Below, one piece after another: positions 1 through 54,236 of a stretch of DNA of 64,000 nucleotides. The translations under genes and the position numbers were made by a program. Each line of letters begins with the position of its first letter. Positions within the stretch are counted from its first letter, which is position 1. This DNA comes from a virus, in the IMG/VR virus record IMGVR_UViG_3300041964_000082, positions 1 through 64,000 of that record, one strand, 5' to 3'. The notes under the pieces are model-generated. The model saw only the letters and a program-made list of their open reading frames with translations. It ran no database searches and was not told the origin of the DNA.

Positions 1-1358
1 CCAAGATCTAGAACCGCGCATTCGACAGGTATCGCAGGCGGCAGAGTCGCTTGAGCTTCTGACAGCTCGACTCGATTCTAGTCGTGACAAGCTAGATGAT
101 CTGCTGCAACGCCTGAATGGACTGCCTACCAAAACTCAGATTTAACCGCAGAACAGCGCGATCGCTACGCTGCAATTAAACGCACCCGCAACGCTCAAGG
201 CAAGCTGCCGCAGCGGGTTGAGCAGTATCGACAGTTACGCGCTGAATTGAGTTCGCAGCTTGCCACCCGCGCTAACACCACACAGCAGCTATCCGACAAC
301 TACAGTACTCAGCGGCAGTCCGCGATCAACAACCTGCAAGCGATCGTTAGCCGCGATGTCGAAACCGTTCGCACTAATCTACAGATCCTTGCTTCTCTTC
401 GTCCCGGTTCAGTCGCTTGGCTGCTGGATAGCCGCAACTGGGAAGAAGGGGCGATGCCTTCAGATCTGGCGATCGTCTTGCAGCGCCAACCCGGAAAGAC
501 ACCAAATGAGCGCTTGCAGTCTGCCGCCAACGAAGTAGCAAAACTAGTAGGGACAGGTCAACGGGCGAATCCAGTCAATTCAAAAGCAGCTTGACTACCC
601 AGATCAGCTTGCACAGGCTACGACCGCTCAAGCCGCTGCCCAGATCGCTCAGTGGCAGCAGTTGCGCGATGAGTTGGCGGATGAGGGTAGGTTGAGCGAT
701 CGCCAAATTCAGCAACTCCTGAAACACCAGACGCATTCGAGCGATCGATGTGGCGCGATCGGGCAATCAGTTAATTGAAGATTTGGCAGAGTTCAACCAA
801 GACTTTGCCAACCTGCTTCTAACTGATGAAAATGTTGACCCACGCCAAATCATTGATCAGTCGGAACTGTACCGACGCGCTCGCGATGGCTTCGCTGAGG
901 AGACGCGCAGACCAAAGCAGCAATCGCTCGTGAATTGAAGAGCGCTTGCAATTGCCACGGCACTACAGCAGCGGAGTGAACGCGATCGAGGGGCAGCGTT
1001 AATCTATGAGGTCGATGGTCGCGCGATCAGCGTGTCAGACTTGCGATCGCAGCTAGAGCAATACAATCAGCAGTTGCGAGAATTCTTGCAGATTCCTCAA
1101 ATTGACGTAGCGGCAAGAGTGACGGCAGAAGAAGACGATCGCTTGCGTCGTCGGCAAAGTGAGGTAGAGAAATCTCAAGCGCAAATCGCACGACTTGGCA
1201 GCACTTCAGGGTGAGCTATCAGAAGTTAACTTGGAAATTCAAAAGCGAATTGAAGCAAGAGAACGCGACAAAAGCGAGGGATTGCAGTCGATCGACTGGA
1301 AGCAAGACGCAGACGAATCCTGAAAGACATCGAGAACGCAGGCAACCCGAATGGATGA
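1..1358 (+). CDS. Partial coiled-coil phage protein, frameshifted
   Basis: The left end lies inside a Gln/Glu/Arg-rich coiled-coil protein that runs off the window. Rejoining at least five reading-frame pieces (about 1-145, 145-594, 594-766, 750-938 and 950-1358) gives one alpha-helical protein of over 440 residues, ending next to the small gene at 1351. I see no enzymatic motif. Its place upstream of the tail tube suggests a head or head-tail structural role, but no family is recognised. Each break shifts the frame by one base, which suits indel errors better than decay. Confidence 0.45.
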
Positions 1359-1518
1359 TACAGAGCGAATTGACGCAACCGAAGCAGAACCGCTACCCAA
1401 TGGCGGGAAGTATGCGGTTGTCCGGTATGAGGGCGCAGACGGGCTACCTGCTACCAAGGCGACGGCGACTAAGGCAGAAGATATTGAGTACAGTGCGACG
1501 ATCGCCCAATATCCCTAA
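1351..1518 (+). CDS. Small head-tail region protein, 55 aa
   Basis: This intact short ORF starts MDDTERIDATEAEP and overlaps the end of the coiled-coil gene by a few bases, the coupling seen between phage structural genes. The body (KYAVVRYEGADG) looks like a small beta-rich domain. The function is not recognised. Confidence 0.45.
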   Translation: MDDTERIDATEAEPLPNGGKYAVVRYEGADGLPATKATATKAEDIEYSATIAQYP

Positions 1519-1523
1519 TTACG

Positions 1524-1937
1524 ATGAGGATGGTTAATGGAAGAGGTGGATCTGATCGGCTGAGGACAGCGATCGAGACAGCGCTGAGAGATGAACTGGG
1601 GGTTTATGTCTTCCCTGGTGGTAGACCGCACCTGCGATCGTGCCTGAGCATGGGAACCGATAACAGTCCGATCGATGGGACTAAAGCGAGGGGCTAGAGT
1701 GTGTGCTTGTATTCCGTCCTGATGTGCCGCTGCGTCCCCTTGATGGGCAATGCTTTCGAGGGAAACCTACAAAGTTCAAATCCTGCTGAAACAGTGGAGT
1801 GCTGAGCAGAACACGCTAGGGGCGCTGTCGCGAATTCTAGAGACGATGATCCCGATGCCTGGATGGTCGGTACAAGTGGCAGCGTTCGGCGGCAGATCCC
1901 GATCGTAGAGCTTGGACTATCGAGATTTTATCGATGA
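1524..1937 (+). CDS. Probable tail-completion-like protein, frameshifted
   Basis: Pieces in three frames rejoin to about 135 residues. They start MRMVNGRGG, continue RTAIETALRDELG and VYVFPGG, then LECVLVFRPDVPL, and end VELGLSRFYR. A small alpha/beta protein just before the tail tube gene is the usual position of tail terminator or completion proteins, so the role comes from gene order only. At least three frame changes are needed in 400 bases, making this one of the most damaged genes here. Confidence 0.35.
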
Positions 1938-2006
1938 TTCTCACGCAAACTCTGCTGAGAGAAGCATAGGAACACTGCCCGCAGAACTAATTCTAAAGAC
2001 TCTGCA

Positions 2007-2705
2007 ATGGCTAAAACTCCTTTTTTCACAGGGAAGGGCGTAGAACTGTGGCTAGCTGCGCTTCCTGATGGTATTGAAACCGAGCCGATCGAATTTACGG
2101 CAACGGCATCCGCAGCAGCAAAAGGGGCAACCACAGTCACCATTACGCCCGCACTGCCTGCCGATAGCTTCGTGCCCAAAGACAGCTATATCAATGCCAT
2201 CAGCGCATTGGGTTATGAGGTTCTGGTGCAGCTTAATGCTGATGCTGAGGCTGGAGATACGACGCTAACGACCAAGCCACTACCGGAAGCGATCGTAGCG
2301 GGTTCGACGGTCGAATATCCGCTCAAGCTCCGCGCTCGTACCACTGCCGATCTCGATCGCTCTGGTAACCGAGTCACCACGGTTACATTTGATGACGATG
2401 CCTACGAAAGCGGTCGCACCACGACGATTTCGATCGGGCTGAACATGCAAGGCAACTGGTCGCCTCTCGATGCAGGCTACGCCACCTGCTGAACATTGGT
2501 TTAACGAGGGCTATCAGCAGCTTTATTTCTGGATGCAGTTGCCCAATCCACGTCCGACTGTTTACAGCAAGGGCAAGGTTTACAAGGGTACAGGGTCAAT
2601 CACCTCAATGCCGCTATCTGCTCCGGCTGATGGCATTATCACCGGAATATTGACGCTGCCTTTAACGGCAAGCCGACGATGGTTAACCCAACGCCGATCG
2701 TCTAA
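2007..2705 (+). CDS. Major tail tube protein, one frameshift
   Basis: The first piece (2007-2492, start MAKTPFFTGKG) and the second piece (from about 2480) rejoin into about 232 residues. The second half reads FNEGYQQLYFWMQLP, then KGKVYKGTGSITSMPL and SAPADGIITG. A Gly-rich turn with a KVYxGxGxIxSxPLSAP pattern is typical of tail tube proteins of long non-contractile tails. It would polymerise into the tube that carries DNA. Position before the chaperone and tape measure genes supports this. The frame change is near 2485. Confidence 0.7.
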
Positions 2706-2707
2706 GG

Positions 2708-2931
2708 ATGATTCGCTCATTGCAGTCGCGCGGTGTCTTTTGCTGTGGCTGTACGGTGCAGCCCGATGGTGTCCAGGTCGCGATCTATATGACTGATGGC
2801 AGTCAAACAGGAAATCGCGACTGGTAGACCTCGACACAAACGATCGCTACACCGTGCAGCTTCCTCGCATCACAGAAAGCCCAACTTACAAAATTCTCCT
2901 TCCCTATGCCCCTGCCCTACAAAACGCTTAA
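2708..2931 (+). CDS. Small tail-region protein, frameshifted
   Basis: The start MIRSLQSRGVF lies three bases after the tail tube stop. After one frame change near 2815 it continues LVDLDTNDRYTVQLPRITES and ends PYAPALQNA. It is about 74 residues, likely beta-rich. Its end overlaps the start of the next gene, so the two are probably translationally coupled. No family is recognised. Confidence 0.4.
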
Positions 2932-3679
2932 GCCCGTTGAAACCGTCGAGTGGGCGGGTTCACAATTCGGAAGCGAGGCAGCTTGACCGTAGCCGAAGAA
3001 CACGCCATGCTGGGTTAGAACAACTCATCGAGAGGAATCCATAAAATCTGACTCCGTTGCAGTCAGATCTAGTGCTAAAACAGCGACGTGATCACTATCT
3101 TGATTCAGTCCAGACTTGATCGCGACTGGGATCTCTGCAAAAACACAGCTTCTGTTTGGCCTGTAGAATGGATGGAGAGACGGTAGAGATCTGAACCAGA
3201 CATGGAATGCTAGATGATCTGTTTGACTTCTTCATGGCTGAACAGCGGCGACACAAGTCGATCGAGGATTAGAGGCGGAACCGCAGTCGGCTAAAAAAAA
3301 GAAATAAATTGGGCAGAAACCTACTGGCGACTGAAGTTGGCATACCCAGTGAGAACGCTTTGGTGAGGAGAGGTTTGGGGATTGTTCGCTGATTGAGGTT
3401 GAAGACGCACTAAATGCACTCGATCGCAGAGATTTTGAAGCTGCCAACCGTGCCGCCATTCCGATCGCCTTCTGTTGGGCAAATGATGCTGCTAGCAAGG
3501 GAGTTAAAGAATTGATCAGACTGTTAATCCCTTACGCCAGCGTTCTCTACAGCGAAGAAGCCCGATCGATCATCGATCCAAAGGTTGCTCAAATTTGGCT
3601 GGATTTAGCCAATGAACAACGCATTCCGAGTTGGGCGATCGCTGAAATCGATATGAAACTGATTCGAGCCGCAGTATGA
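2906..3679 (+). CDS. Tail assembly chaperone with likely -1 frameshift
   Basis: Rejoined pieces give about 250 residues: MPLPYKTLKPVETVEWAG, SLTVAEEHAMLGLEQLIE, VTILIQSRLDRDWDL, LFDFFMAEQRR, then NWAETYWRLKLAYP and a helical C-terminus ending DMKLIRAAV. This matches the two-part chaperones (lambda G/GT type) that guide tape measure and tube assembly. At 3291-3304 an A8 run follows GCT. The zero frame ends AAG-AAA-TAA just after it, while a -1 slip continues straight into NWAETYW. Other breaks upstream (near 2965, 3045, 3200 and 3265) look like ordinary indel errors. Confidence 0.6.
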
Positions 3680-4049
3680 GCAGCTATAAACTCAGCTTAA
3701 ACATCACCGAGATCAACAAGCGGCAGAGCAGGCATTTGTTGACACTGCCTTTCAGTTTGGCGCTGCCATGACTCGCGTAATCTCAGAACCTCGATCGTGG
3801 GCAGGATGGGATGACACACGAGACATCGTTGACACTGGACAACTGCGATCGAGTCAGCAGATGGTCTTTAATAATCCTTTTGAAGCTGCCTACTCATGGC
3901 CTACAGAGTACGCCGCCTACGTTCACGAAGGCTACACACTGAGAAACGGCGAACGAGTTGCAGGGACGACCCTGGACAGTATAGCGCAGCAGGAATTCGA
4001 CATCCAAGAGGCGTATGCTGCGGCGTATCAGAAGTACATAAATGCGTAG
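3676..4049 (+). CDS. Minor tail / connector-like protein, frameshifted
   Basis: The ATG overlaps the previous stop (GTATGA). After one frame change near 3705 the protein continues AEQAFVDTAFQFGAA, then TGQLRSSQQMVFNNPFEAAY and YAAYVHEGYTLRNG. The pattern 'DTGQLRSS ... YAxYVHEG' is typical of the small HK97 gp10-like head-tail or minor tail proteins. About 124 residues. It sits in the order chaperone, this gene, lipoprotein, tape measure. Confidence 0.5.
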
Positions 4050-4138
4050 CCTCTTGTTTTCATCAAAACTTCACAGCCAAAGATTGCAGAATTTTATCTG
4101 GCGACAAGCATACTAAAGGGGTCGATTCCATCTTCCTC

Positions 4139-4609
4139 ATGAAAGCTCAAGCATCTGCGATCGCTGCCTTGGTTCTTTTGGCTGGGTGCGCTACTCAGTC
4201 CAAAGATCTGAGTGGACAGGTATTCTTTCCTAGCGCTCCGCCTGGATACGATGGACAGCCCTGCACCGCACCAACAGGTTATGACGATATCGAAGCGGGG
4301 TTACAGGTTGTCGTCAAAAATGCGGCGGGCGAAATCGTAGGCAGTGGAGCGCTTCAGGAAAGCACGGCAACAGCGAAAACTTTGAGTGAAGAGCAGCAAA
4401 GAGGATTGCAAGATCCACAGGTGGCAGCACATCTCGCAGGCAGAGTACCAATTACCTGTACCTTTCCTTTTGAGGTTGAAGGCATACCAAAATCAGACTT
4501 TTACACAGTTCAGGTAGGCAGTGGCGATCGCGGTTCTCTAACTTTTAACTTTGACGAACTTGAGCAGCAAGATTGGAAGGTTGTCTTAACGCTAGGTGAT
4601 GCGCCCTAG
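4139..4609 (+). CDS. Putative lipoprotein within the tail module
   Basis: An intact 156-residue ORF. The N-terminus MKAQASAIAALVLLAGCATQ is a bacterial lipoprotein signal with lipobox LAGC, so the mature protein would start at Cys16 and be anchored to a membrane. The mature part is a beta-rich domain with two or three cysteines (for example ITCTFPF). A membrane lipoprotein between the chaperone and tape measure genes is not a usual tail component. It could be an accessory gene acting in the host envelope, for example in superinfection exclusion, but that is only inference. Confidence 0.6.
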   Translation: MKAQASAIAALVLLAGCATQSKDLSGQVFFPSAPPGYDGQPCTAPTGYDDIEAGLQVVVKNAAGEIVGSGALQESTATAKTLSEEQQRGLQDPQVAAHLAGRVPITCTFPFEVEGIPKSDFYTVQVGSGDRGSLTFNFDELEQQDWKVVLTLGDAP

Positions 4610-4661
4610 CTCGATCGCTTTTAGGTAGGAATTCTAGCCACGAAGTCTTTAAGCAAAGCTC

Positions 4662-7600
4662 GTGGCAAGTCTCGGAACCCTCAATCTTGTTTTATCCGCA
4701 GACTCTAGTCCGCTACGCAAAGAGCTAAGCGGAGTCACACGCGAAGCCCAATTTGCCGCCAAAGCAATTCAAGGCATCTCCACAGGCGAAAGCTTTAGCG
4801 GTGCAGGGCTTCAGGTTCTAAGCTCGACCATCATTGGCCTAGTTGACGATACCCATCGGCTAGGCAATGAATTTAAGCTCACCACTTCACTAGTTGAAAA
4901 CCTAAAAAACGGGATAGGTGGTCTTGCCGCACTCCCGATTCCTGATTTTCAGGCAGAAGCTTTATCCTCACTGGGGCTAGGGCAGGTTTCTAGCAGTCTG
5001 GAAGTCCTCAGCCTTGCCTCTACAGGATTAAAGACACTGGCGATCGCTCAAGGGATCGCTCAAGGTGCGATTGTAGCTTTTAGCGGTGCGCTCGAAACAC
5101 TGAGAGTAAACCTCAAGTTAGTCAGCTACTTCTTTGAGGATATTGGCAATTCACTCAGGGCAGCAGGGGCAATGTTTGCGCCCCTGGTTGGCTTGATGGA
5201 TGGCGCTGGTCGCGCATTCGATCGACTGTCGGATGGGGCGGGCGACGTTAAAGGCAGAATGGATTCTGCCTGGGTTTCGGTTGGCAGCTTTGGGCAACAA
5301 CTCCAGAAATATATCGGAGCCGCCGAAAAATTCCAGTCGGCAATGGAAGATCTGGGCGAAGCTGCCATCCTATTTAATCAGTGGAAGAACCTTTCTGATA
5401 TCGTTGACGGTTTTTTTGGCGGGCTTCAAGAGAATTTTGACGCCGCTCGCAACTTTGAAACGCTAAATAATCGACTTGAACTTACCTCTACATCGGCGGG
5501 TGGAGCGAGAGAGGATCTAGCCTTCCTTCGGCAAACAGCAAAAGATTTAGGGCTAGACTTCAAGGCGGTTAGTGAGGGTTTCGCCCAATTCTCAACAGCA
5601 GCAAAACTAGCGGGCTACGACGCTAATCAGACCAAGCAAGTCTTCACAGACGTATCGCAAGCCGCCTCTGTGATGGGTCTGTCGGCTGAAGAGACCTCTG
5701 GAGTATTTCTAGCACTGCGGCAAAGTTTATCAGGTGGAACAGTTCAGCTAGAAGAATTAAACCAATTAGCTGAGCGTGTACCAGGTGCATTTGCTGCTGC
5801 TGCCCAAGCGCTAGGGGTAACGACAGGCGAGGTTAAAGGCTTGATTTCGGCGGGCAATGTTTCCTCAGCCGACTTTATTCCTAAATTTGCTGCTGCTCTT
5901 GCTTCTGTCACCGAGTCCGGCGTTACTGATGCGATGGGTTCTGGCACAGCAGCGGTCAATCGTTTTAATAACGCGCTGGGCGAAGTGTCGGTTTCACTTG
6001 GTAAAGATCTGCTGTCATTCGGTACGCCTGCAATCAATGCCTTTGCCAAAGTGCTTGAATTTGGCGCAGAAAATGCTGAATTGTTTGGAACTGCTGTCGA
6101 TGCATTCCTCGTTGCAGCAGCAATACGAGGTGCGGGTGCAGTAGGCAAGATGGGCACCGTGATTGCTAGCTTCGTCGCGCAAGGCGGCAAAGGCTCGATC
6201 GCAATGCAACTATTTGGGCAGCAAATCTCGCTTACGACTGCACAGATCGGAAACTGGCAGCGCAGGCTGGCTTAACTTTTGCTGCCCTAACTGTTTTCTA
6301 CAAAGTACTCGATCGCTTCAAGGATGGTGGCAGTGAAACCCAAAAGGCGGTCGACAGCCTCAACAATTCCTTGGTTGAACTGAATCAAGCTGCTGGCAAT
6401 ACTCCGTCACTTGCCGCGATCATCCCTGAAAATCCACCTTCAACTGATTTTCTCGATTCATTTGTCCACAAACTGAATGATGCCAACGCCGCAATCAATC
6501 GCTTGTTTGGACTGGATGAAGGCTTTGGCAGGCTGACCACCAATGCTGATAAACAGCTCAACGATCAGCTGATCAAGATCGGAGAATTCGGTCAAAAAGC
6601 ACAGGAGATTTTAGGACAATCGCTCAGCCTGCGTGAACAAAACAAAGGCGGTGACGGAGCGATCAACGAACTGAAGCAGCTAGACGCGATGCTTGCCCAA
6701 ATTGAGCAGCGCAAAGTCAACGTTGACCCTGCCAATGAGGACGCGATCGCTCAAATCCGACAAGAAGAGGAAGCGCTACTAAAGCGACGAGCAGACGCCC
6801 AAAAAGAGGTGCAAGCAACCCAAAGCGCCATCAACAACGCGCTGACGCAGGCACGGCAAGAGCTTCAGAATCTTGATCCTGCTCAGATGGGGCAAGAGGG
6901 ATACGATCGCGCTAAGGAGCAGATCGAGACTCAGATCACGCTGCTAGAGCGAGAGAAAACAGAACTCGATAAGGTTGCCAACGCTGCCACACAAACTGCT
7001 CAAGTTACGGCTGACGCTTTCAGCAAGTCGAATCACGAGATCGAAGCGGGCTACCAGCAGCGACAGGCAGCGATCGCAGAAGCGCTGGCAAGTGGAGAGA
7101 TCGACGAAGAGCAATCGAGAGAACGATCGCTTCAGGCTGAGCAAGAATACTTGCAGCAAAAGCTGGAACTAAACCGATCCCAGCTTGAAAAACTGCGGGC
7201 AGAACTAGAGAAAAACGCCAAGCTGCGGGCGATCGATCCTGCCGCTGCCACACTGACGGCAGATCAGGAAAAGCAGTACGCAGAACAGGTAAAGCAACTT
7301 GAACTGGAGACGGCGCAGACCCGCATTCAGATTGCCCAGAACACCCGCGAGGGCAAGCAGCAGGCACTAGAGGATGAGCTAAAAGGCATCGAGCAAGCCA
7401 ACAGCGAAGCAGAAGCCGCAGTCTCTAAAAGTCAGAACGATCGCACTGCCGCCATTCGTCAGCAGCAGCTAGCAGGTACGGTGGGAGAGGAGGAAGCCGC
7501 CGCTAAGATTGCCGAAATTCAGCGCGACTCGATCGCTGAGCAAATCGACCTTGAACGCGACAAGCTCGCTCAGCTTGCAGAACTTGAAGCCGCTGGCACA

Positions 7601-9834
7601 ATTCCAGCAGAAGAAGCCGCCAAGCGCCGGCTAGACATCCAAAGCGAAATCAGCGACCTCAGTCTGCAACAGATTGAGTCTGAGCTTGATGCCCGTCTGG
7701 AAGCAGAACGCAAAGCGGCAGACGAGGCAAAAGAACTGCGAGATTCTGTAAACGTCGATGCGACTCGCGAGACTACACAGGTACGAGTAAGGCAGGCAGG
7801 CGGCGAAATTAATGAGGCAGAAGCCGCAGCAGAAATCGCAGAAATTACCGCCAATGCCACCGCACGGCAGATTGAACTGGTAGAGCAGCGTTTAGGGCGT
7901 GGTGCGGCGTGGCAGTGATGAAGAAAAGGATTTAACCAGAGAACTTGCCGACTTACAGCAGCAGTCCGCAGAGCAGGAGATCGCCCGTCAAGAGCAGGTG
8001 AAGCAGGCGCGATTGGAGGCTCTTGAACGTGCCAACGAACAGGCTGAGCTGCGATCGATCAAGGAGAAACCGCTGAAATTACTGCTATTCGTGAACTGCA
8101 AGCCCAGAGGGTGATCAGTGCTGAGGAGGCAGAGACAAGAATTGCTGCTATGAGGCAGCGTACTGTAGCCCTTCAAGTTGCTCTTACCGAAAGCGAAATC
8201 GAACAAGTTCGACAGCTTCGAGCGGAAGGCGTTCTTAGTGAAGAAGAAGCGATCGAGCGTCTGTCAGACCTAAGTGGCGAACTTGGCGAACTAAATCAAC
8301 AGCGAGTTGAAAATGAAATCGACGCGCAAGAGCGATTAAAGCAGGCTCGATTGGAGGCAATGGAAAGCGCCAATCGCCAAGCAGAAGCGGCGATCGATCA
8401 GTCACAAACCACAGGGGTTACTGCAATCAAGAGCTTGCAGGCGCAGCGAATAATTTCAGAGGAAGAAGCCACCGAAGAAATCGCAGCGCTACAGCAAGAA
8501 GCACTCGATCAGCAGATTGCCCAAACTCAAGAGCAAATTGCAGAAATTCAGCAGCTTCGATCTGAAGGCATTCTCAGCGAAGAAGAAGCTACTGACAGAT
8601 GATCGACCTAAATGGAGAATTAGGCGATCTTAACGAGGAACGAATCGATGCAGAAATTGACTCTCAAGAGAGGCTAAGAGAGTCGCGAATAAAATCCCTT
8701 AATGAGGAGCTAGACTTCAAGCGCAAATCAGCAGAAGCAGATCAGGGACTCAACCAAATCGCGATCGACTCTATTAAAAATGAAAACAATCTTCTGTCTG
8801 CTCAAAGCAGTCTGCTTGAGGCTCAGTCGGGGCTAGCAGAGCAGCGACTTCAATACGCCCTTAGAAGACGCTGAAACGGCAGGCAATAGCGCTCAGCTGA
8901 TCAGATCAGACAGCAAATTCTCGCTCAACAAACCGTTGCCCAAGAGAAAGCAGTTTGCGATCGCTCGACAGCAGCTTGAACTCAAGCGCGAACAAGTCGC
9001 ACTGGAATCACAGCAGCGGCAGATTCAAGCTGATATTGCGATTACAGAGGCAGAAGTTGCGCTCTCTACAGCAGCAATCAATGGTGAAAATCAACAGGTG
9101 ATCGCAGGGTTAGAGCGAATTTTAGATCTGAGACGGCAGCAGCGAAAGGCAGTCAATGACCAGAACAGAGCGCAAGAGCGATCGCTTGAACTTGAGCAGC
9201 AAACGCTCACCACTCAACAGCAGCAAACGCGAGAACAGCAAGCACGGCAGCGGGCGCAGGCAAACAATAGAAACTCAGGCAGCGGCAGTGGTTCGGGTGG
9301 TCAATCAGGATCGGGATCAGGATCTTCTGGAGGCTCAAGGAGTTCTGGATCAAGCTTCGGATCGAGATCTGGACTTGCACCCAGCCGATCGCTTGTTAGT
9401 CGAGAGTCGCTGGTCGCTGCAATGGGTGCGGGAAGTATGCCAGCCAACTTTAGCTATGGCGGAATCGGTGGCAGTCAGATGCGGCAAGCGGAATGGCGCA
9501 CACCCGAATGGAGCGATGGGCGATCGACACCAGTGCAAAGTCCTGCTGCTTCGACAATGGCAGCATCTAGGCAGTCAAGTCCTTTGCAGTTGCAAGGGCT
9601 ATCACAGGCGGGCTTACAGCGCAATGCGCAAGCAAATCGCGCAGCTCAGCCACAGACTACAGGAACGCTAACAGCAGCCAATTCAATAGCGGAATTAATC
9701 AGCTATCGCAAAGGATCGTTCAGCTTGCGAATGCGCCAAGAGCGGTAACACTTCAAACACCCGAACCCGTTCGTGACTATCAGCGAATCTCCAGTGATTT
9801 AATGTCTTCTCGCGCTAGAGCAGCAGGAATATGA
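4662..9834 (+). CDS. Tail tape measure protein, several frameshifts
   Basis: About 1,720 residues when rejoined, starting at a GTG (ASLGTLNLVLSADSSPLRK). Residues about 260-450 carry the tape-measure N-terminal domain (RNFETLNNRL, VMGLSAEETSGVFLALRQS, QLEELNQLAERVPGAFAAAA). The middle (about 6370-9240) is a long coiled coil rich in Gln and Glu with internal repeats (see repeat entry). Near 9270-9370 is a Gly/Ser linker. The end (GRAAGI region) overlaps the next gene by ATGA. Frame changes lie near 6270, 7900, 8105, 8600, 8900 and 9745. It would set tail length and take part in DNA entry. Confidence 0.75.
7440..8720 (+). repeat. Degenerate protein repeats in tape measure
   Basis: The coiled-coil part repeats a unit of roughly 70-90 residues containing 'EGxLSEEEAxxRLxDLxGELGxLN', then 'xIDxQERLxxxRLExxExAN' and 'AxxIxxLQ'. 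Clear copies have cores GVLSEEEAIERLSDLSGELG and GILSEEEATDR-LIDLNGELG; weaker ones are GTIPAEEAAKRRLDIQSEIS and GEINEAEAAAEIAEI. Repeats in tape measures fit length change by unit gain or loss. Confidence 0.6.
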
Positions 9835-10282
9835 AACCAGGAACGATCGAACTCTACGCAGGCGGCATGATGCTCTTACTGGAACTATTCAGCGAGGGGA
9901 CTTTTCCACGCGAAGATCTTGAGGTTACAGGCGTCTCTTTTCCGCATATGGAACGCCTGCACAGATGGCACAACCTACCAGATGAGCATCTGGAATCTTA
10001 CGGTCTTTGCTAACCGACAAAGGATGCTGAAAAGCTAGCGAGAATGTATCGGCTCAGCAAAAGTCAAAATATTTTGATTGTCGATCGCACCGATCGCTAT
10101 TGGGAACCCACCCAAACAGAGCGATCGCGCCTGGAGATGTGGCAGTCGTAGAAGACGGAATGACAGGTTATTTTGCTCAGTTTTACGGGCGAATTACTCA
10201 GGCGATCAAGCAAGACAAAGAAGGTAGAATGCGGGCGATCCAGTTACAGCTAACCGAAACTGACAAAGTGCCGATCGCATGA
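9831..10282 (+). CDS. Phage tail protein, frameshifted
   Basis: The start MKPGTIELYAGGMML overlaps the tape measure stop by ATGA. Rejoining pieces near 10005 and 10120 gives about 148 residues: SFPHMERLHRWHNLPDEHL, LARMYRLSKSQNILIVDR, PGDVAVVEDGMTGYFAQFYG, and end LTETDKVPIA. Position directly after the tape measure suggests a distal tail or tail-tip role. No family is recognised with certainty. Confidence 0.45.
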
Positions 10283-10518
10283 GCATGAGCGAAGATCTGC
10301 GACTACTAAAGCAATTAGACTTGTCGCTGGTACTCCGCGATGGGCGATGGTATTGCGGTCAATTTGGCGGCGACTTCGAGGGCGATGAAGGCTATTTAGA
10401 CGAACACGGAAGGATCGATGGGCTTCTATACAATGCCGGGGTAGCTGATACCATCCCTAAAGCGATCGCGCTTGCTGTTGTCGCTCGTCAAAGTGTGCGG
10501 CAGCGATCGAAGAATTGA
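10279..10518 (+). CDS. Small tail-region protein, 79 aa
   Basis: An intact ORF that overlaps the previous stop by 4 bases (ATGA). It is acidic and Trp/Tyr-containing (DGRWYCGQFGGDFEGDEGY) with a helical C-terminus. No family is recognised; the tight coupling implies it belongs to the tail operon. Confidence 0.5.
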   Translation: MSMSEDLRLLKQLDLSLVLRDGRWYCGQFGGDFEGDEGYLDEHGRIDGLLYNAGVADTIPKAIALAVVARQSVRQRSKN

Positions 10519-10565
10519 AATTAAATCAGTAGGAATTCTCACGGCAGCAAACTCACCGCTGCCGC

Positions 10566-12416
10566 ATGACCGTCGATCGCAGTTCCCGCCCTTTCAAAAT
10601 CGTCGTTGCTGCGCCTGGTGAATCGATCGCGCAAGGGTTGGATGTAACCGCGATCGTTAAATCATTTAGCGGTAGCTGCAACCTACTCGACCAAAGTGGA
10701 ATTCAATCTTGGTCAGGCGATATTGTGCTTAATGCCTACTCACCAGGAATCTCGATCGAGTGCAACCCCAGGCGCGATCGAGTTCGTTGGGCGCGTGGCA
10801 ACCGTGTAGTGATTTGGCTGGCAAACAGTGTCGGGACGCTGGTTAGGTACAAAACGCTTCATATCCTGAAAGAACCGTTGCCGCCCACACCAAGAATTCG
10901 AGACGCTATCACCCTAGACATCGGTGATAAGCTTGCGCTCCTTGACTTTAGGCAACCACCGGGGGATGAGAGCGGCGTTGCACCCGGTACAACCAGCACT
11001 CGATCGGATGTCGTGGCATCGCTGTTACAGGCAGCAGGTGCAGGCAATCTCACCGGATCAATCCCTGGTGATGTCAACTGTCCTCTACAGAAATTAGGCA
11101 GTGAAGGTTTTATTCAGCAGGCAGGTCAAATCGCTTTTGCCGCTGGTAGGTACTTATGGTGTGATGCCACTGGAGATGTTCGCGCTTCGGCAATCCCTGA
11201 CGATGAAGATGCAACCGCGCATCGAGTAATAGCGATCGGGCAAGACGAACTTGGATATGAGGCGATCAGCAGTGAAGAAACACCTGCCGAAATTGTGCGC
11301 TGTACTGGCACTGAAAATGTCACCAAGTTTACGGACGACTACAACAAAAGCACTGTTGAAACGTGGGGGCCAGCGGCGATCGTCAGCCCCAACGCAGGCG
11401 GCATCACAATCTTTTCAGAGAAACGATCGAGGAATCTTGGGGGCCAAACTCACGAACCGTTCGCACTTATCGAGTGGAACCGCGCGGGCTTGTATTTCCT
11501 GATGTGCAGAGCAATCGGATTGCCTTAGTGCCCAGCCTCGATCAAGAGGAAACATTCGTCTACGAACCAGGGATAGAGGGCAAGCTACTAAGAATTGAGA
11601 GGCATATTCGCAAGCCCTATGGCGTGGCACTGCGTGAATATTACGCCACACAATCCGCGCAAGAGCAAGCGAACAATCGATCGAACATGATCGCGGCTGA
11701 ACGGGTGATTACAACTTTTGATTACAGCCTAGAACAGACGATCGGGATATTCAGTGACACCTCAGAACCACAGGGCGCGATTTTGCCTAACGAGGATTGG
11801 ACGTTTGGCAACCCTGCTTTTCTAGTGCCTTCTGCGGCTGAGAATCAAACCTGGAAAGAAGTTTACAAGGGTGAATGGAAATACACCAAATCGACCTATG
11901 AAGCAGTCGCGCGGGCATTTCCAGAAGTGATCGAGGCGATGCTGCCAGATACGCCGACAAGCGCCAAGCTGGGGATCTTGCTCACCGACAAGCAGACCGT
12001 AACCAGCAACTCAGGACAAGCGCAACCACCTGCACCCGAATCGACGTAAGCCCAAGACCACAACCGAAGAGAAACCGATCGAAGGCGTGTGCAGAATTCC
12101 GCTCTTATGCAGGGGCGAGAGTATCAGGAGAGGGAGCGCACCTATGACGTGCCTTACGCCGACCAAGAGGAGAGCTAAACGCCTGCTGCAAGGCGACTAG
12201 GCAAACTGCTGATCGGGCGGCATTTGGGCAAAATATCGAGTTCGCGCTGAGTGATTATTGGCTGAACGATCGACCGCCATTGCAGACGATATCCGTGACT
12301 GAACCTGACGGTCGTGAGTATAAATTCTTGCTGAATAACATTTTGATCGCGTTTGATAATCGCAACTGTTTTTAGGTGGCGACGGGCATTGGTTAGGGGA
12401 GATTGTTGATGACTAA
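10566..12416 (+). CDS. Tail hub-like protein, frameshifted
   Basis: About 615 residues after rejoining near 11430, 12050, 12110, 12180 and 12375. The N-terminal part (FKIVVAAPGESIAQGLDVTA, IECNPRRDRVRWARGNRVVI, YKTLHILKEPLPPTPRIRD, CPLQKLGSEGFIQQAGQIAF) looks like the beta-rich hub protein following the tape measure in many siphovirus tails, which links tube and fibres. A later part reads TWKEVYKGEWKYTKSTYEAV and the end GHWLGEIVDD. The stop overlaps the start of the His/Gly-repeat fibre gene (ATGACTAA). The role comes from size and gene order. Confidence 0.5.
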
Positions 12417-13677
12417 ACGCCTGAAGCTACCTTTTCAAACTGTTCTCATCTCAAAGGTGGGCAGGGGGCATGGGGGCGAGATGTTCGCGCCTCCCTATCC
12501 TCTAGCCCCGACTCAAGTTACTTTGTCGGGCGGACAGGGGCATGGGGGCGATATTTCGTCACCACTCAACCTTGCAGGCGGACAGAGGCATGGGGGCGAA
12601 AACTTTGTCTATGCACCGATTTTGGCGCTGTCAGGGGGGCATGGGCACGGAGGCGAAATAGGGCAACCCGTCTCAGCGATCGGGGCACATGGGCATGGTG
12701 GGCAGATCACCTTTGCTTGCGCCTACGAGAACCTTAGAGGGTGGACATGGGCATGGTGGAGACGTGCTTGTAACGCCTGCGTATATCCGCATGAGAGGGG
12801 GGCATGGGCATGGCGGCGAACTCAGACCCCGCCTCAACTTTGCAGGTGGACATGGGCACGGCGGGCAAATCCTAGCGCGATCGAACCCACTGAACCTTGC
12901 AGGTGGACAGGGGCATGGCGGAGATATCGCGGCACTAGCGGCAGCTTTTGCCATGTCGGGTGGACATGGGCATGGCGGCGCACTGGCATTGCCACCCAGC
13001 ATCGTCAACAGCGCCCTAACGCGCTATATGTTTGCTGATTCCAACGTCACTAGAGACGGAAGCGATCTAGTGACGCAATGGAGAGACAAAAACCCGCTGA
13101 GCGGTACGGTAAGCAACAGCGGATCGGGTCGCCTTTGTATGTCGCAAGCGCCATCAATACTCAACCTGCTCTCAGGTTTAATGGATCATTAAACTTCCTA
13201 TCAGGTGCAGGCGGCGGTTTAATCACGGCGGCACAGTTTACCGCTTTTGTCGTTTTCAAAGCCAGCAGCATTACGGCAAATAGCTCAATTTCCTTTTACA
13301 ACCAAACCTTAATTAGTACAACTGGGGGTTGGTGGGGGCTGCATCTCAGAACGCCGAACATCGTGATCGCTCAGAACTACACACTGTCAGGCGACACTTC
13401 GGTCACACGAACACTTTCCAGCCCAACCGCCCTAACGATCGCAACGGTTTGGCACGGAGGCAACGAACTAAACCTGCAACTCAACCAGGGGACAGTCGGC
13501 ACGATCGCGAGTGGAGACACCGGATCAATTAGTGATACCTTCCGCATCGGTCGCATTACTTCGGGGGCCTACTATGCGGGCGATATTGGAGCAATCTTGA
13601 TTTACAACACCGCGCTTTCGGATGTCGATCGAACCTATGTCCAAAACTATCTAAACGAGATTTACGCGGTCTTCTAG
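12409..13677 (+). CDS. Tail fibre: HGHGG repeats plus LamG-like domain
   Basis: About 420 residues after rejoining near 12730 and 13170. Residues about 15-205 hold ten copies of a motif close to GGHGHGG(E/D/Q), spaced mostly 16 or 19 residues apart. The C-terminal about 200 residues resemble a LamG/concanavalin-like lectin fold (TQWRDKNP, PALRFNG-LNFL, FTAFVVFKAS, DTFRIGRITSGAYYAGDIG, AILIYNTALSDVDRTYVQNY, LNEIY). This is a stalk plus receptor-binding head arrangement. HxH motifs bind iron in the tip of the T4 long tail fibre gp37, so metal binding is plausible but not shown. Confidence 0.6.
12450..13005 (+). repeat. GGHGHGG-encoding tandem repeats
   Basis: Ten imperfect DNA repeats of the form 'ggggggcatgggcatggcgg' encode RGHGGE, GGQGHGGD, GGQRHGGE, GGHGHGGE, GAHGHGGQ, GGHGHGGD, GGHGHGGE, GGHGHGGQ, GGQGHGGD and GGHGHGGA. 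Between them lie 9-17 residue hydrophobic segments often ending LAGG or LSGG. The repeat crosses one indel near 12730, after which the motif continues in the next frame, showing that the break is recent or artefactual. Confidence 0.75.
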
Positions 13678-13712
13678 CGTAGGAATTCTCAGGCGATGCT
13701 CACAAAGAGTTT

Positions 13713-14398
13713 ATGCCGCCAACAAGTTTTGCCGCATGGGATGAGAGAGTCGGTCGAGTAATGTACTTGGGAGACGCCCGACCCGACCCCAGCAGATTCA
13801 GAGTTATGCTGCTCAACGGTCTGAGCGTCACCCGAAATACTTCAAAGGCTGCGATCGTCTCAGCCGAAGTTTTAGGTGGTGGCTATCTCCGCGCTAGCTA
13901 CGCACCGAGCGGGGGCGTTTTCGACTCAGGACAAAATCGATATGAACTATCAACCGTAAACGTCGATATTTCAATCAGTGGCACATCAATTCAGTGGTCA
14001 AGCGTGGTTCTGTTTGCTGATGCCGCTGCTGTTCATGCCCTGACAATGGGGGCGATTAATACCTCAACCGATCGAATCACAATCACAGCGCACGGGCTGA
14101 CCAGCGCAACTGAGGTAGCAGTTACTACAACGACTGTGCTGCCTGGGGGATTGTCGCCAACACGCTGTATTTCGCTAGGGTTATTGATGCGAATACGATC
14201 GAGCTTGCATACCACCTCAGCCTTAAACAGCATCGTCGATATCACCACGGCGGGGACTGGCACTCACTCACTCAGAAACGCCACAGGAACGCCTTTCAGT
14301 TTGAGAACTTTGCCGCTCAAACCGTGGGTGCTGGGGCTACTCAGTCGCTTCGCATCGATTGGGCGATTATGAACGCAGGCAACGTGAATGGTGTCTGA
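13713..14398 (+). CDS. Virion-associated beta-rich protein, frameshifted
   Basis: The start is MPPTSFAAWDERVG, and about 228 residues follow when rejoined near 14145 and 14310. Motifs include RVMYLGDARPDPSRFRVMLL, SGTSIQWSSVVLFADAA, ITAHGLTSATEVAVTT and the end SLRIDWAIMNAGNVNGV. 'IxITAHGL..G..V' elements are common in phage fibre and baseplate accessory proteins. It likely belongs to the fibre/tip cluster. The stop overlaps the next start (TGATG). Confidence 0.45.
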
Positions 14399-17467: not shown

Positions 17468-17515
17468 GCGGCGATCGGGTGCAAAGCAGGCAAACACACA
17501 GCAAAAGGGTTGAAA

Positions 17516-18004
17516 ATGAAAGCACTAAGCGATCGTCAGAATACAGCGGGCTTCACTTTGATCGAAGTTTTGATAACGATAATCATTATCGGTATCCTCA
17601 GCTCTCTCGCTTTGCCAGCGTACTTATCACAGGCTGCAAAAGCCAAACAGACAGAAGCGAAGGGGTATGTGAGTGCTGTCAATCGCGCTCAGCAAGCCTA
17701 CAGAATCGAAAAGTCTACATTTGCTGGGGAATGGACAGACCTAGAAATTGGCATTCCTGCCGAAACTCAAGACTATACCTACACTCTGAGCGCTGCGAGC
17801 GAAACCACAACAACGATCGCTGCCGAATCAGAAGCGCCTGAACTGCGCGACTACTCAGGCGGCGTGGTAGTCCTGCAAGACAGCGGGCAAACGTCCGTAG
17901 CCGCCTGTCAGACAACCAAAACAGGTGGGAGCGTGATTCTGCCGACGCTCGATCGATCGATTGGGGCAGGATGTGAGGGCAACGATGTGGAGATCATGCG
18001 GTAA
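17516..18004 (+). CDS. Type IV pilin-like protein
   Basis: An intact 162-residue ORF with a textbook type III signal: MKALSDRQNTAG followed by FTLIEVLITIIIIGILSSLA. Cleavage after Gly by prepilin peptidase would leave Phe at +1 and Glu at +5. The long hydrophobic helix, an alpha-1 spine (QAAKAKQTEAKGYVSAVNRA) and a C-terminal domain with two Cys (VAACQTT, GAGCEGN) match cyanobacterial PilA-like pilins. Pilins form host fibres for motility, adhesion and DNA uptake. A pilin among phage lysis genes is unusual and suggests transfer from the host. Confidence 0.85.
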   Translation: MKALSDRQNTAGFTLIEVLITIIIIGILSSLALPAYLSQAAKAKQTEAKGYVSAVNRAQQAYRIEKSTFAGEWTDLEIGIPAETQDYTYTLSAASETTTTIAAESEAPELRDYSGGVVVLQDSGQTSVAACQTTKTGGSVILPTLDRSIGAGCEGNDVEIMR

Positions 18005-20911: not shown

Positions 20912-21653
20912 GTGAACATACTAGACGCGCTAGAAAAAAAACAACTTCTGTTGTACTATCAACCAATTGTTGATCTGCAACAGCACAGCGCCCCAGTAGT
21001 GGGGTATGAAGCGCTTTTACGCTGTAAATGCCCCGATCGAGGTTTTCTACTTCCTAAAGACTTCCTACCCAGCATTACCCAAGCAAAAATAACTGATTTC
21101 AAGTGGCAAACGCCTTTATTTAACTGGGTATTCACTGAAGCATGTAGAACAGCAGACAACGCTTGAAGACGGGCTGTACTTGAGCGTAAACGTCGAACCT
21201 ATGCAGTTTCTTGAAGCTGGGTTTGTAGCACGAGTCAAGCAAACAATAGAACAGCTAAACCTTAAAGGCCGAATATGTTTTGAGATCACGGAACACTCGA
21301 TCGCGAGTCGTGATTTGCTAGTTCTACAGCAAGAACTTACATTATTAACAGAATCAGCAAAAGTTGCTCTAGATGATGTTTGGACAGGCAATGCTTCTTT
21401 GTGGAGAATTAGCGAACTGTATGGGTTGATTGACCTCTTAAAAATCGATCGCGTTTTCATGCCAAAAGACTCGTTTGATCGCAAGTCGATTGCTATCTTT
21501 AGGTGTTTCGTCACACTAGCTGACGCTCTGGACTTGCAGACAGTAGCAGAGGGGATTGAAACACAGCAACAGGTTGATTTCTGTCGATCGCTGGGCGTAC
21601 GCTTTGCTCAGGGGTTCTTTTTCGGGAAGGCGCAGGCAGAGTTGGCGCAATGA
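20912..21653 (+). CDS. Stand-alone EAL c-di-GMP phosphodiesterase, one frameshift
   Basis: About 246 residues starting at GTG. It is a single EAL domain with no sensor or GGDEF part. The catalytic set is present: EALLR, SVNVEP (Asn), FEITEHS (Glu), LDDVWTGNASL (Asp-Asp), LLKIDR (Lys), VAEGIET (Glu) and AQGFFFGK (Gln). EAL enzymes cut c-di-GMP to linear pGpG. The frame break near 21160, between FTEACR and LEDGLYLSVNV, looks like a single indel. Lowering c-di-GMP usually favours motility over attachment; a role in host behaviour is inference. Confidence 0.75.
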
Positions 21654-38259: not shown

Positions 38260-38733
38260 CTACTGGAGGCGATAGGGGTATCCATTGGTGCGTCCGTCAT
38301 AGATGCCGCAACCTGCATTTCTCAGGTATTCCGTCATGCTCCGAAGCGTTGCAGTGTCAACCGTTAGAGTCGATCGCCCCTGATCCACCTGCTCTCGATC
38401 GATTCCCGCAGCCTTTGCGATCGCTGTTAGCAACTCCTCAAGCGCTTCGCGGTTCTCTCGGTGGGTTAATCCCTTTGCTAGTGCCAGTTGGAAGGTTCGC
38501 AGCGGCAGCGTTAGTTCGATCGTTGTTGGTTTCAGTGCTTCGTCTGCCTCGAATTCTGCGCAGGGTATCAGCACAGAAGAAAACAGGTTTAGCCGCTCTT
38601 GGCTGTCAATTTCTAATCTTTTCGACGCTTCCCAGTAGGGAGCATTAACAGCACAGCCGCGATCGGCGTTGTATTTGCAGTTTTTACAGATTGGTGGGGT
38701 CATAGTTTCAGGTGGTGATTTGGTTTCTTGCAT
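38260..38733 (-). CDS. Zinc-binding-like protein, 157 aa
   Basis: The N-terminal part has a four-Cys pattern (PPICKNCKYNADRGCAVN ... PCAEFE), then a helical middle (LTHRENREALEELLTAIAKA) and DTATLRSMTEYLRNAGCG. The start ATG overlaps the methyltransferase stop region upstream. Function unknown. Confidence 0.5.
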   Translation of the reverse strand: MQETKSPPETMTPPICKNCKYNADRGCAVNAPYWEASKRLEIDSQERLNLFSSVLIPCAEFEADEALKPTTIELTLPLRTFQLALAKGLTHRENREALEELLTAIAKAAGIDREQVDQGRSTLTVDTATLRSMTEYLRNAGCGIYDGRTNGYPYRLQ

Positions 38734-39875
38734 TACGCTGTTGCCTCCTGTAGGTTAAAAATAGTGAGTTGCTGGCAGCCGTCCGCAACCTTGAGCAGCT
38801 TGGGTTTGCTGACTCCAGGCGCGTGTTTTTCTAGCCATTCTTCGCGCTCTTGCTCAGAAGGCAAATACTTAAAATGTCCTAGCCGCTGGCAGCATCGACT
38901 AATCCAGTGCGGATCAATTTCAATGCCGATCGCCTGCCTGCCTAAGCTTTTCGCAGCGATCAGTGTTGAGCCTGATCCGGCAAAGCAATCGAGTACGACA
39001 GCGTTCGATCGAGTGGACGCGCTAATGATGTGTTGCAGCAGTTCTAGCGGCTTTTCGCAGGGGTGCTTACCTGGATATGCGCCAACGGTCGGAAATGTCC
39101 AAACATCGGTGTATGGCACGTCAGCAGTGACAGAGAAGGGGCGGCGTAGCGATTCGTATTCTTGGCGTAGCGATTCGTATTCTTGGCGTAGCGATTCGTA
39201 GCTGCGTTCAAAGTAGCCGGGGAATGCTAGCTGGAGTTTTGCGTAGTGTTCTGGTGTTGGACAGTTCTTACCCTTCTCCCAGTTAGAGCAAGCACCCCCA
39301 TGATTTACAGTGCCGTATGCCCCTACAACCTCGGTTAACTGCTTCGATGACAGCTTATGCTCCGCTCTAATTTGTTTAATGTAGTTACCCCAAACCGCTT
39401 GCGCTGCTTCGTCGCATTTAGACCAGTAACCGCTTTCATCTTTTGCGCCTTCATCAGATCCATAGTGTTCGCAAAAAATAATAGATTCCGTGTTAGGCAG
39501 AAACGATCGAACCTGCTCTTTGTCTGCACACCAATTTCTATTCCCGTTGGACTTGTACCAGCGGATGCTATTCAGCACATTAAATCGATCGCCCAACATC
39601 ACCTCAACTCTTGCTGCCATTCTCGGAGAGGCAAAACAGTAGAGCGAGCCATTCGGCCTTAGCAGTCTTTGCCACTGCTCAGCGACTTTATCTAGCCAAG
39701 ACAGGAAAGCTGCGGGCTTCTCCCACTGACAATCCCACCATTCATCTTTTTTCACCTGAAAAAAAGGTGGATCTGTGAGGATTAGATCGACACTGCTATC
39801 AGGCAGCGATCGCATTACTGCCAAGCAATCGCCCTGGTACAAGCTGATTTGTGGTGTTTCAAAGCACGGTTTCAT
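38733..39875 (-). CDS. DNA methyltransferase with inserted XRE domain
   Basis: 380 residues. SLPDSSVDLILTDPPFF carries the DPPF catalytic motif and VVLDCFAGSGSTLIAAKSLG the AdoMet-binding motif; DPPF-first order fits the beta class (N6-adenine or N4-cytosine). Between them, residues about 165-225 form an XRE-type helix-turn-helix (IRAEHKLSSKQLTEVVGAYG, SNWEKGKNCPTPEHYAK) followed by a heptad repeat (LRQEYES). This would serve as a target-recognition insert. It may protect phage DNA from host restriction. Confidence 0.8.
   Translation of the reverse strand: MKPCFETPQISLYQGDCLAVMRSLPDSSVDLILTDPPFFQVKKDEWWDCQWEKPAAFLSWLDKVAEQWQRLLRPNGSLYCFASPRMAARVEVMLGDRFNVLNSIRWYKSNGNRNWCADKEQVRSFLPNTESIIFCEHYGSDEGAKDESGYWSKCDEAAQAVWGNYIKQIRAEHKLSSKQLTEVVGAYGTVNHGGACSNWEKGKNCPTPEHYAKLQLAFPGYFERSYESLRQEYESLRQEYESLRRPFSVTADVPYTDVWTFPTVGAYPGKHPCEKPLELLQHIISASTRSNAVVLDCFAGSGSTLIAAKSLGRQAIGIEIDPHWISRCCQRLGHFKYLPSEQEREEWLEKHAPGVSKPKLLKVADGCQQLTIFNLQEATA
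39144..39199 (-). repeat. 21-bp tandem repeat in methyltransferase
   Basis: GCGTAGCGATTCGTATTCTTG occurs twice in full and a third time in part, with perfect copies. It encodes YESLRQE heptads. Perfect repeats of this kind are prone to unit gain or loss and would change the length of a coiled-coil linker. Confidence 0.8.
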
Positions 39876-52849: not shown

Positions 52850-52990
52850 TTACGACGGCTTTTTAGGGAGTCGCAACCTACGGATCAACTCTCTCAGTAC
52901 GTCAGACTTCGTTCTGCAGACTGCCTCGCAATAAGCCTCTAGCAATGCAAACTCTTCATCATTCAACCGGAAAAACACACTTTTACTCAT
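52850..52990 (-). CDS. RHH protein divergent from TnpB, 46 aa
   Basis: MSKSVFFRLNDEEFALLEAY, then TKSDVLRELIRRLRLPKK, a compact ribbon-helix-helix DNA-binding protein. It is read away from tnpB with a perfect palindrome between them, so it is probably the repressor of the element. Its stop lies in the left-end hairpin. Confidence 0.6.
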   Translation of the reverse strand: MSKSVFFRLNDEEFALLEAYCEAVCRTKSDVLRELIRRLRLPKKPS

Positions 52991-52996
52991 GGCAAG

Positions 52997-53015
52997 GTAT
53001 ATCGTTATGATATAC
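52997..53015. promoter_or_regulatory. Palindromic operator between RHH gene and tnpB
   Basis: GTATATC-GTTAT-GATATAC is a perfect 7+7 inverted repeat placed 7 bases from the RHH start and 10 bases from the preferred tnpB start. A repressor bound here would block translation-start regions of both transcripts. Confidence 0.6.
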
Positions 53016-53024
53016 AATAGTAGC

Positions 53025-54236
53025 ATGAAACTTCGCTACCGCTATCGTCTTTATCCCAATTCCGAGCAGGTTAAACTGCTCTCTAAGCTGTTTGGCTGCA
53101 CTCGTGTAGTTTGGAACGACGCTTTAGCTTTTTGCCAGCAGACGTGGAAGGAGGGAATCAAATACCCTGGTGCTAGCGAGTTGATGAAGCAGTTCATCAC
53201 ACAAGCGAAAGCCAATCCTTTGCGCTGCTGGTTAAGCGAGGTTTCTAACATCCCATTGCAACAGTCGATTCGAGATCTAGACGCTGCCTTTCGCAACTTC
53301 TGGAACTCGATCAAAGGCAGCCGCAAGGGGCAGAAAGTAAAGCCACCCAGGTTTAAGAAACGGCATTCTAGACAGACTGCCAGATTCACCACGGGTGGAT
53401 TCAGCATCAAGGCTGAGAAGGTCTACTTTGCCAAGATTGGCAAGGTCAGAACGGTATGGAGTAGACCTTTGCCATCTACTCCATCCTCCGCAACTGTAAT
53501 CAAGGATGCAGCCGGACGCTACTTTGTCAGCTTTGTCTGCGAAGTCGAGGTTGCTACACTGTCAACTTGCCCTAACGCGGTCGGCATAGACTTGGGCATC
53601 CAGACCTTTGCCGCCCTGAGCACGGGTGAGAAGATTGATGCCCCCAAGCCGCTCAAAGCTGCACTCAAAAAGCTCAAACGATTACAACAGAGCCTCAGCC
53701 GCAAGGTGAAAGGATCAAAACGTAGAGAGCAAGCAAAGTTAGCCGTAGCGAAGCTTCACGCCTTCATTGCTGATGCCCGCACCGATTTCCTGCACAAACT
53801 CTCAACTCGACTGATTCGCGAGAACCAAGCAATCAGTTTAGAAGACCTAAATGTGTCAGGGATGGTCAAGAACCGCAAACTCGCAAGAGCGATTAGCGAT
53901 CTAGGGTGGAGAACCTTTCGAGAGATGTTGGTCGCCAAAGGTGGGATGTATGGCCGTGAAGTCAGCATCATCAACCGTTGGGAGCCGACATCGCAAGCCT
54001 GCTCAAACTGTGGGCATCGTGGCGGCAAACTCAATTTGTCTGTCCGATTGTGGGAGTGCCTGTATTGCGGTGTAAGTCATGACCGAGACATCAACGCTGC
54101 CATAAACATCAAAGTCGCGGGAGGACATTCCGAGACTCAAAACGGACGTGGAGAGACTGTCAGACTGCCATTGGCAGCAGGTTTCAGTGAAGCGTCAACC
54201 CATCAATTAGGAGAGCAGCTATGCCTGGACTTCTAG
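53025..54236 (+). CDS. tnpB: TnpB RNA-guided nuclease
   Basis: 403 residues from MKLRYRYRLYPNSEQVKLLS; an upstream in-frame ATG at 52989 lies in the operator and is not preferred. The RuvC residues are present: Asp in VGIDLGIQTFAAL, Glu in ISLEDLNVSGM, Asp in HDRDINAAINI. The zinc finger is CSNCGH ... CLYCG. Frame and length are intact, so the nuclease may be active. TnpB cuts DNA next to a short target motif using a guide RNA from the element's right end. Confidence 0.85.
   Translation: MKLRYRYRLYPNSEQVKLLSKLFGCTRVVWNDALAFCQQTWKEGIKYPGASELMKQFITQAKANPLRCWLSEVSNIPLQQSIRDLDAAFRNFWNSIKGSRKGQKVKPPRFKKRHSRQTARFTTGGFSIKAEKVYFAKIGKVRTVWSRPLPSTPSSATVIKDAAGRYFVSFVCEVEVATLSTCPNAVGIDLGIQTFAALSTGEKIDAPKPLKAALKKLKRLQQSLSRKVKGSKRREQAKLAVAKLHAFIADARTDFLHKLSTRLIRENQAISLEDLNVSGMVKNRKLARAISDLGWRTFREMLVAKGGMYGREVSIINRWEPTSQACSNCGHRGGKLNLSVRLWECLYCGVSHDRDINAAINIKVAGGHSETQNGRGETVRLPLAAGFSEASTHQLGEQLCLDF

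Follow-up and report, generated by a model that had tools for sequence, protein, structure and literature searches.

Many HxH motifs in a phage fibre are already known. In the R-pyocin fibre, the HxH sites bind iron through six histidines contributed by three chains, and the same motif is present in T4 gp37, T4 gp12 and the P2 spike (PMC6116203, in the portion of the text available). The same portion describes a lectin-like domain at the end of the R-pyocin fibre and mentions a proposed role of the fibre metal sites in folding, for which it states that there are no experimental data. T4 gp37 holds seven bound irons, as given in the accessible part of PMC11705849. Its sequence contains eight HxH motifs at spacings of 141, 32, 14, 37, 14, 9 and 9, and in several of them the residue two past the second histidine is Val, Phe or Ile. 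More regular arrangements are found in Alteromonas phage R22Y gp12, with six HxH motifs, of which four stand exactly 22 residues apart, and in phage V19 gp4, with four HxH motifs at 22-residue spacing. The locus described here resembles T4 gp37 and the R1/R2 pyocin fibres in carrying HxH pairs and a receptor-binding end, and resembles R22Y gp12 and V19 gp4 in having an N-terminal part with several HxH motifs at regular intervals. It differs from both sets in the motif itself. The T4 contexts are of the HTHTV and HSHTF type with demonstrated metal, and the R22Y and V19 repeat is of the HxHxIxDIxGL type. In contrast, the repeat of this locus is Gx[G/R]HGG at 16- and 19-residue spacing, with Gly at the position two past the second histidine, and its metal is only inferred. 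The R22Y ORF also matches the Pfam family PTR (PF12789, E 6e-24), while the stalk described here does not. The repeat and its spacing are thus a separate variant. The first-pass annotation knew of no described fibre with so many such motifs, but T4 gp37 and R22Y provide precedents for fibres with many HxH motifs.

Two further systems share glycine-rich features with this locus. Salmonella phage S16 gp38 has ten glycine-rich motifs with variable segments between them, and no histidine motif is mentioned in the part of PMC6851490 that is available. Shepherin I is a Gly/His-rich peptide that binds Zn(II) and Cu(II), and GGHGHGG occurs in the paper that describes it (PMC10698721, available in part). 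By this example, the bare motif can bind metal.

The DNA analysed here, referred to as the window, covers bases 1-64,000 of an IMG/VR virus record that is 94,714 bases long. A putative fibre gene lies downstream of the tail tape-measure gene, within the tail module (Table 1). The first-pass annotation had read 12450-13677 as a single continuous frame, silently joining what are in fact three frame segments. The change from frame A to frame B falls between about 12708 and 12740, and near 13100-13130 the reading returns to the frame of segment A. Motif copies 1-5 therefore share their frame with the greater part of the head, and copies 6-10 with the start of the head lie in another. The position of the gene in the tail module and its variability among close relatives are as in receptor-binding fibres, and its product is probably the receptor-binding fibre of an uncultured cyanophage.

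Table 1. Positions of the fibre gene, its repeat and its neighbours in the window
Feature	Position	Strand	Remarks
Tail tape-measure protein, first part	4662..6275	+	PF20155, E 7.6e-35; phrog_2335
Gene upstream of the fibre, broken into frames in the window, end approximate	10566..12410	+	Intact 615-aa ORF in L012
Fibre gene, ATG to stop, three frame segments, about 420 residues	12409..13677	+	Homologous to intact L012 ORF 18295-19623
Frame segment A: N-terminus (LKLPF, common to L012) and motif copies 1-5	12409..12735	+	In ORF 12403-13038
Motif copy 1, GRGHGG	12460..12477	+	
Motif copy 2, GQGHGG	12532..12549	+	
Motif copy 3, GQRHGG	12580..12597	+	
Motif copy 4, GHGHGG	12637..12654	+	
Motif copy 5, AHGHGG	12685..12702	+	
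Frame segment B: motif copies 6-10 and head start (RYMFADSNVT...VTQWRDKNPL)	12710..13125	+	In ORF 12689-13192
Motif copy 6, GHGHGG	12743..12760	+	
Motif copy 7, GHGHGG	12800..12817	+	
Motif copy 8, GHGHGG	12848..12865	+	
Motif copy 9, GQGHGG	12905..12922	+	
Motif copy 10, GHGHGG	12962..12979	+	
Frame segment C: head domain, probably a ConA/LamG-like lectin jelly roll	13126..13677	+	Frame of ORF 13078-13677; L012 head homology, weak fold matches
Variable cassette	12433..14036	.	Low DNA identity to L012; blastn similarity back at 14037
Gene downstream of the fibre	13713..14372	+	

The stalk motif Gx[G/R]HGG is present in ten copies in order (12460-12979). The count of ten given in the first-pass annotation holds for this form of the motif, but the exact string GGHGHGG that it had named occurs in only 5 of the 10 copies. 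The second histidine is present in all ten (codon CAT in eight, CAC in two). The first motif position is His in six copies, Gln in three and Arg in one, and so HxH, always as HGH, is found in 6/10, with QGH in two of the remaining copies and QRH and RGH in one each. A six-histidine site of the T4 or R-pyocin type needs both histidines, which are available in those six copies only. The intervals between motifs are 24, 16, 19 and 16 residues in frame A and 19, 16, 19 and 19 in frame B. The near-constant 16- or 19-residue spacing that had been claimed applies to the later intervals, but not to the first, of 24 residues. The fifth interval, which joins frames A and B, measures 58 nt, or 19 codons and one nucleotide. 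Hydrophobic spacers separate the motifs, and nearly all of them have one or the other of two fixed lengths. A DNA pattern for the repeat (GGNCANGGNCANGGNGG) has seven matches in the window, all within the stalk, and none in 100 dinucleotide shuffles. In the seven motif codons of the ten copies, bases that depart from the majority come to 4 at the first codon position, 3 at the second and 24 at the third (70 cells each). Since the motif codons vary mostly at silent positions, selection has evidently acted on the protein, and the copies do not stem from recent duplication of DNA. Judged by its codons, the repeat is real and kept at the protein level.

The most informative relative was found through the tape-measure protein, a scan of IMG/VR with which returned two loci, L012 (87% identity) and L013 (99%). 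L012, located on IMG/VR contig 3300018877_000004, aligns with the window up to 12435 and again from 14037. Between the aligned parts it has an intact ORF of 442 residues in an uninterrupted frame. The two fibres are syntenic and begin alike (MARYLKLPF in L012, MTKRLKLPF in the window), and their heads are homologous, with 76 of 183 residues identical (42%) and an alignment score of 370, where the best of 200 shuffles reached 70. The L012 stalk consists of 11 repeats of the form GxG[IV]Txx[hydrophobic]G at spacings of 24, 19, 19, 16, 19, 19, 16, 19, 19 and 16. The L012 stalk thus has the spacing of the window stalk, 24 and then 16 or 19, but the HGH motif is absent from it. Although the sequences of the stalks hardly align (segment A scores 34 against L012, where the shuffle mean is 35), the common spacing marks them as counterparts. 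As the HGH-free stalk keeps this spacing, the shared fold requires neither histidine nor metal. The L012 fibre matches no Pfam family, and neither PHROGs nor NCBIfam offers a convincing match.

The register between the two stalks was examined by sliding unit profiles over 19 offsets, window against L012. In the best register of the 16-residue units, the invariant histidine falls on the Ile/Val of L012 (-1.2, the next register scoring -5.8). The best register of the 19-residue units gives the same pairing by a negligible margin (-6.6 against -7.1), all scores being negative. Counting by hand from the conserved N- and C-terminal anchors gives a register 3-4 residues off the profile optimum. That histidine stands in place of a core aliphatic residue is offered as a hypothesis only. 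Two positions past the Ile/Val, L012 mostly has Lys or Arg, otherwise Gln or Trp, and because of these mostly basic residues this face of the L012 stalk appears unlike a buried one.

The nature of the head was approached through models of the intact relative. AlphaFold2 monomer predictions reached a mean pLDDT of 36 for the L012 fibre and 42 for its head alone, values too low for confident use. A Foldseek search with the head model (pLDDT 42) ranks an Agrocybe lectin and neurexin, agrin and laminin-G folds first, at E 3.8e-4 and weaker and TM of about 0.3-0.43. The BFVD matches of the full model (pLDDT 36) include ConA-like and LamG-like phage proteins. Neither head, from the window or from L012, has a Pfam match at E up to 10. 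On these models, the head is likely a lectin-like jelly roll. The annotation of the gene as a tail fibre with a lectin-like head is supported by its place in the tail module and by the intact fibre-like homologue in the same place in L012, and weakly by the lectin, laminin-G and neurexin matches of low-confidence models.

No relatives were found by tblastn among phages (queries P0001, P0002, P0003 and P0004) or among plasmids (query P0004), by a search of the genome collection with the upstream protein, or by peptide-pattern scans of IMG/VR with P0002 and P0003; the scan with P0004 returned only the L012 contig itself. Two spaced DNA patterns matched four stretches (on three contigs) and none, respectively, in IMG/VR, the four being judged by eye as unrelated and of low complexity. 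With a single-motif pattern, 85 stretches of IMG/VR matched (80 of the 85 listed), and with a two-motif pattern, 37 stretches of the genome collection. A script for spaced motifs covered 137 sequences, with 7 skipped as copies of the window, and the runs at eight other loci were rejected by eye as Gly/His-rich low complexity or out-of-frame readings. At the level of families, P0001, P0002 and P0003 have no Pfam match at E up to 0.1, the window stalk matches neither a Pfam nor a PHROG family, and segment B of the stalk corresponds to no NCBIfam family and to no fibre sequence in the PDB. Comparison of P0004, P0002 and P0003 with PDB sequences by phmmer gave no fibre match at E up to 10. The exact string GGHGHGG occurs in three papers of the collection searched, none of them about phages judging by title. 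Together these searches hint, weakly, that such stalks are absent elsewhere.

The boundary of the fibre region is sharp. DNA identity between the window and L012, counted per 100 nt, is 86-88% before 12400 and ranges over 38-59% across the 12501-13900 blocks, with the drop at fibre codon 9. Two contig ends fall on the base that corresponds to 12433 and share their last bases: that of L013 and that of the second copy of this region carried by the record itself, which stops exactly at codon 9. Because assemblers stop contigs at forks where alleles diverge, we infer from these ends that the populations probably carry more than one or two versions of the fibre. The sharp drop and the two contig ends make the region look like an exchangeable receptor-binding cassette, and the HGH and HGH-free stalks suggest which part may be swapped. 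Switching of the DNA by an invertase is unsupported, as the edge has no inverted repeats: no 14-mer from window 12396-12440 recurs inverted in the record or in L012. The flanking genes differ in conservation. The upstream protein is 96% identical to that of L012 across the 204 residues compared; the downstream protein is 41% identical in its first 108 residues and 79% in a later stretch, and its L012 counterpart has weak matches to tail and baseplate PHROGs. A relative of the upstream gene (25% identical) is present on plasmid pPSE7367.01 of Pseudanabaena sp. PCC 7367 (L147 8001-10031), a conjugative plasmid with a phage terminase, and its C-terminus has short AANVTAGTE-type repeats. The plasmid was set aside as a source of a fibre relative, as a separate fibre is absent from the region read.

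These observations can be assembled into a tentative model. The fibre would have three parts: a short N-terminal anchor (LKLPF), a stalk with repeat units of 16 and 19 residues, and, at the C-terminus, a lectin-like head whose most likely ligand is a glycan on the host surface. The stalk would be exchangeable, built of GxG[IV]T units in the close relative and of Gx[G/R]HGG units in the window allele. Three chains may associate as a homotrimer with the histidines facing inward, so that the invariant second histidine, together with the first histidine in six units, would be aligned across the chains. Such aligned histidines could bind a transition metal and stiffen the stalk, as in T4 gp37 and the R-pyocin fibres. 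Metal binding by the window stalk is plausible from the motif itself and from analogy with those fibres, and nothing conserved predicts a metal staple. Several observations speak against the metal-bound trimer: the HGH-free relative, the four copies that lack the first histidine, the weak register, the unburied look of the L012 face, the Gly that stands where several T4 gp37 motifs have Val, Phe or Ile, and the low pLDDT of the predictions. Taken whole, a receptor-binding fibre with an exchangeable stalk, the histidine version of which is perhaps a metal-bound trimer, falls somewhat short of being probable. It is unlikely, if conceivable, that one lineage carries two interchangeable stalks of equal unit spacing, one packed by aliphatic residues and the other with histidine at the matching position in all units, the hydrophobic core being swapped for a metal core; as many as ten metal sites would then be stacked along the histidine stalk, and its stiffness or assembly would depend on the supply of metal.

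A different account keeps the same fibre and cassette but takes the His/Gly units as tight exposed turns between strands, or as a response to receptor or pH, without structural metal. This account is a serious possibility, if on balance an improbable one. Glycines flank each histidine, as suits turns, and Asp, Glu or Gln stands three residues past the second histidine in nine of the ten copies; the loss of the first histidine in four copies and the HGH-free L012 stalk of the same spacing also fit. Against it, the second histidine is invariant in the face of silent codon variation, a constraint stronger than a plain turn needs.

The stalk could instead be a single-chain beta-solenoid, with one unit per coil, Gly/His turns and no intertwined trimer. 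Units of 16 and of 19 residues have a common length for such a coil, and their 3-residue variation could fit in a loop. This arrangement is nevertheless quite unlikely: the low-confidence L012 model contains no solenoid, and the R-pyocin fibre, which is of known structure and has a C-terminal lectin domain, is a trimer (PMC6116203, as far as its text is available).

An adhesin like S16 gp38, with a polyglycine-II lattice, which likewise combines ten glycine-rich motifs with hypervariable segments between them (PMC6851490, in its available part), is very improbable here. The homologous L012 stalk has none of the long glycine runs that such a fold would keep among relatives, the hydrophobic window spacers of two fixed lengths are unlike short hypervariable segments, and the window protein has a lectin-like head of its own.

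The receptor-binding fibre with an exchangeable stalk remains the preferred reading. If the histidine version binds metal, the window and L012 alleles form a natural experiment, with the same spacing and the same kind of head, with and without histidines, and the pair would reveal what metal sites add to a fibre. If it does not, the sharp edge of the cassette at codon 9 of the fibre is nonetheless documented for a lineage of uncultured cyanophages, and the window fibre serves as a warning on reading motifs across broken frames.

The broken frames reflect the state of the record as a whole. Its last 12.4 kb (G000 82282-94714) is a second version of window 1-12433, 91.97% identical across 12,371 aligned bases, and the record probably combines sequence from two strains of a phage of approximately 82 kb. 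The two copies are separated by 114 gaps, the lengths of 112 of which are not multiples of three. In two aligned blocks of the 12.4 kb, whose genes are intact in L012, substitutions fall at codon positions 1, 2 and 3 in the numbers 91, 51 and 347. This preference for the third position indicates that the neighbouring genes are under constraint and not decaying, and gene decay was rejected on this ground; single-base indels in such genes are most likely assembly errors, and the frame breaks across the record are probably of this kind. A homopolymer origin of the indels was also rejected, as only 13 of the 43 window-private indels have a stretch of at least three identical bases nearby. That the repeat itself is artefactual, produced by a chimeric assembly with broken frames or by decay of the gene, as the three frame segments and the second copy at 92% identity might suggest, is scarcely credible: its protein register is kept in frame A and, with silent changes, once more in frame B, the head and spacing match the intact relative, the neighbouring genes show third-position bias, and ten motifs cannot arise from indel errors.

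The host of the phage is probably a cyanobacterium, since the record is enriched in GCGATCGC (115 occurrences, 1.6 expected), which we take to be HIP1, a cyanobacterial signature, and in CGATCG (566 occurrences, 23.9 expected).

The record contains several other features. By eye, a second fibre-like gene cluster lies on the other strand (window 63083-63628 (-), L141 1083-3266 (-)), and its ORF 63083-63628 has no Pfam match. The large terminase subunit (G000 72151-74157 (-), L141 10151-12157) carries an intein (PF14890, Hint_2), and nested in the terminase stretch is an ORF resembling a homing endonuclease by eye (L141 10293-10964). An IS605-type OrfB/TnpB protein with a Cas12f-like TNB domain is encoded at window 52989-54236 (+). 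A perfect 21-bp tandem repeat of 2.8 copies (window 39143-39200), giving YESLRQE repeats, sits inside a putative DNA methyltransferase ORF (38733-39875). Window 21180-21653 (+) encodes an EAL-domain protein of the cyclic-di-GMP phosphodiesterase type (E 2.4e-28). Directly behind the tail module, at window 17510-18004 (+), is a gene whose product resembles a type IV pilin (Pilin_GH, E 1.7e-24) and has an N-terminal methylation motif, an unusual cargo for a phage.
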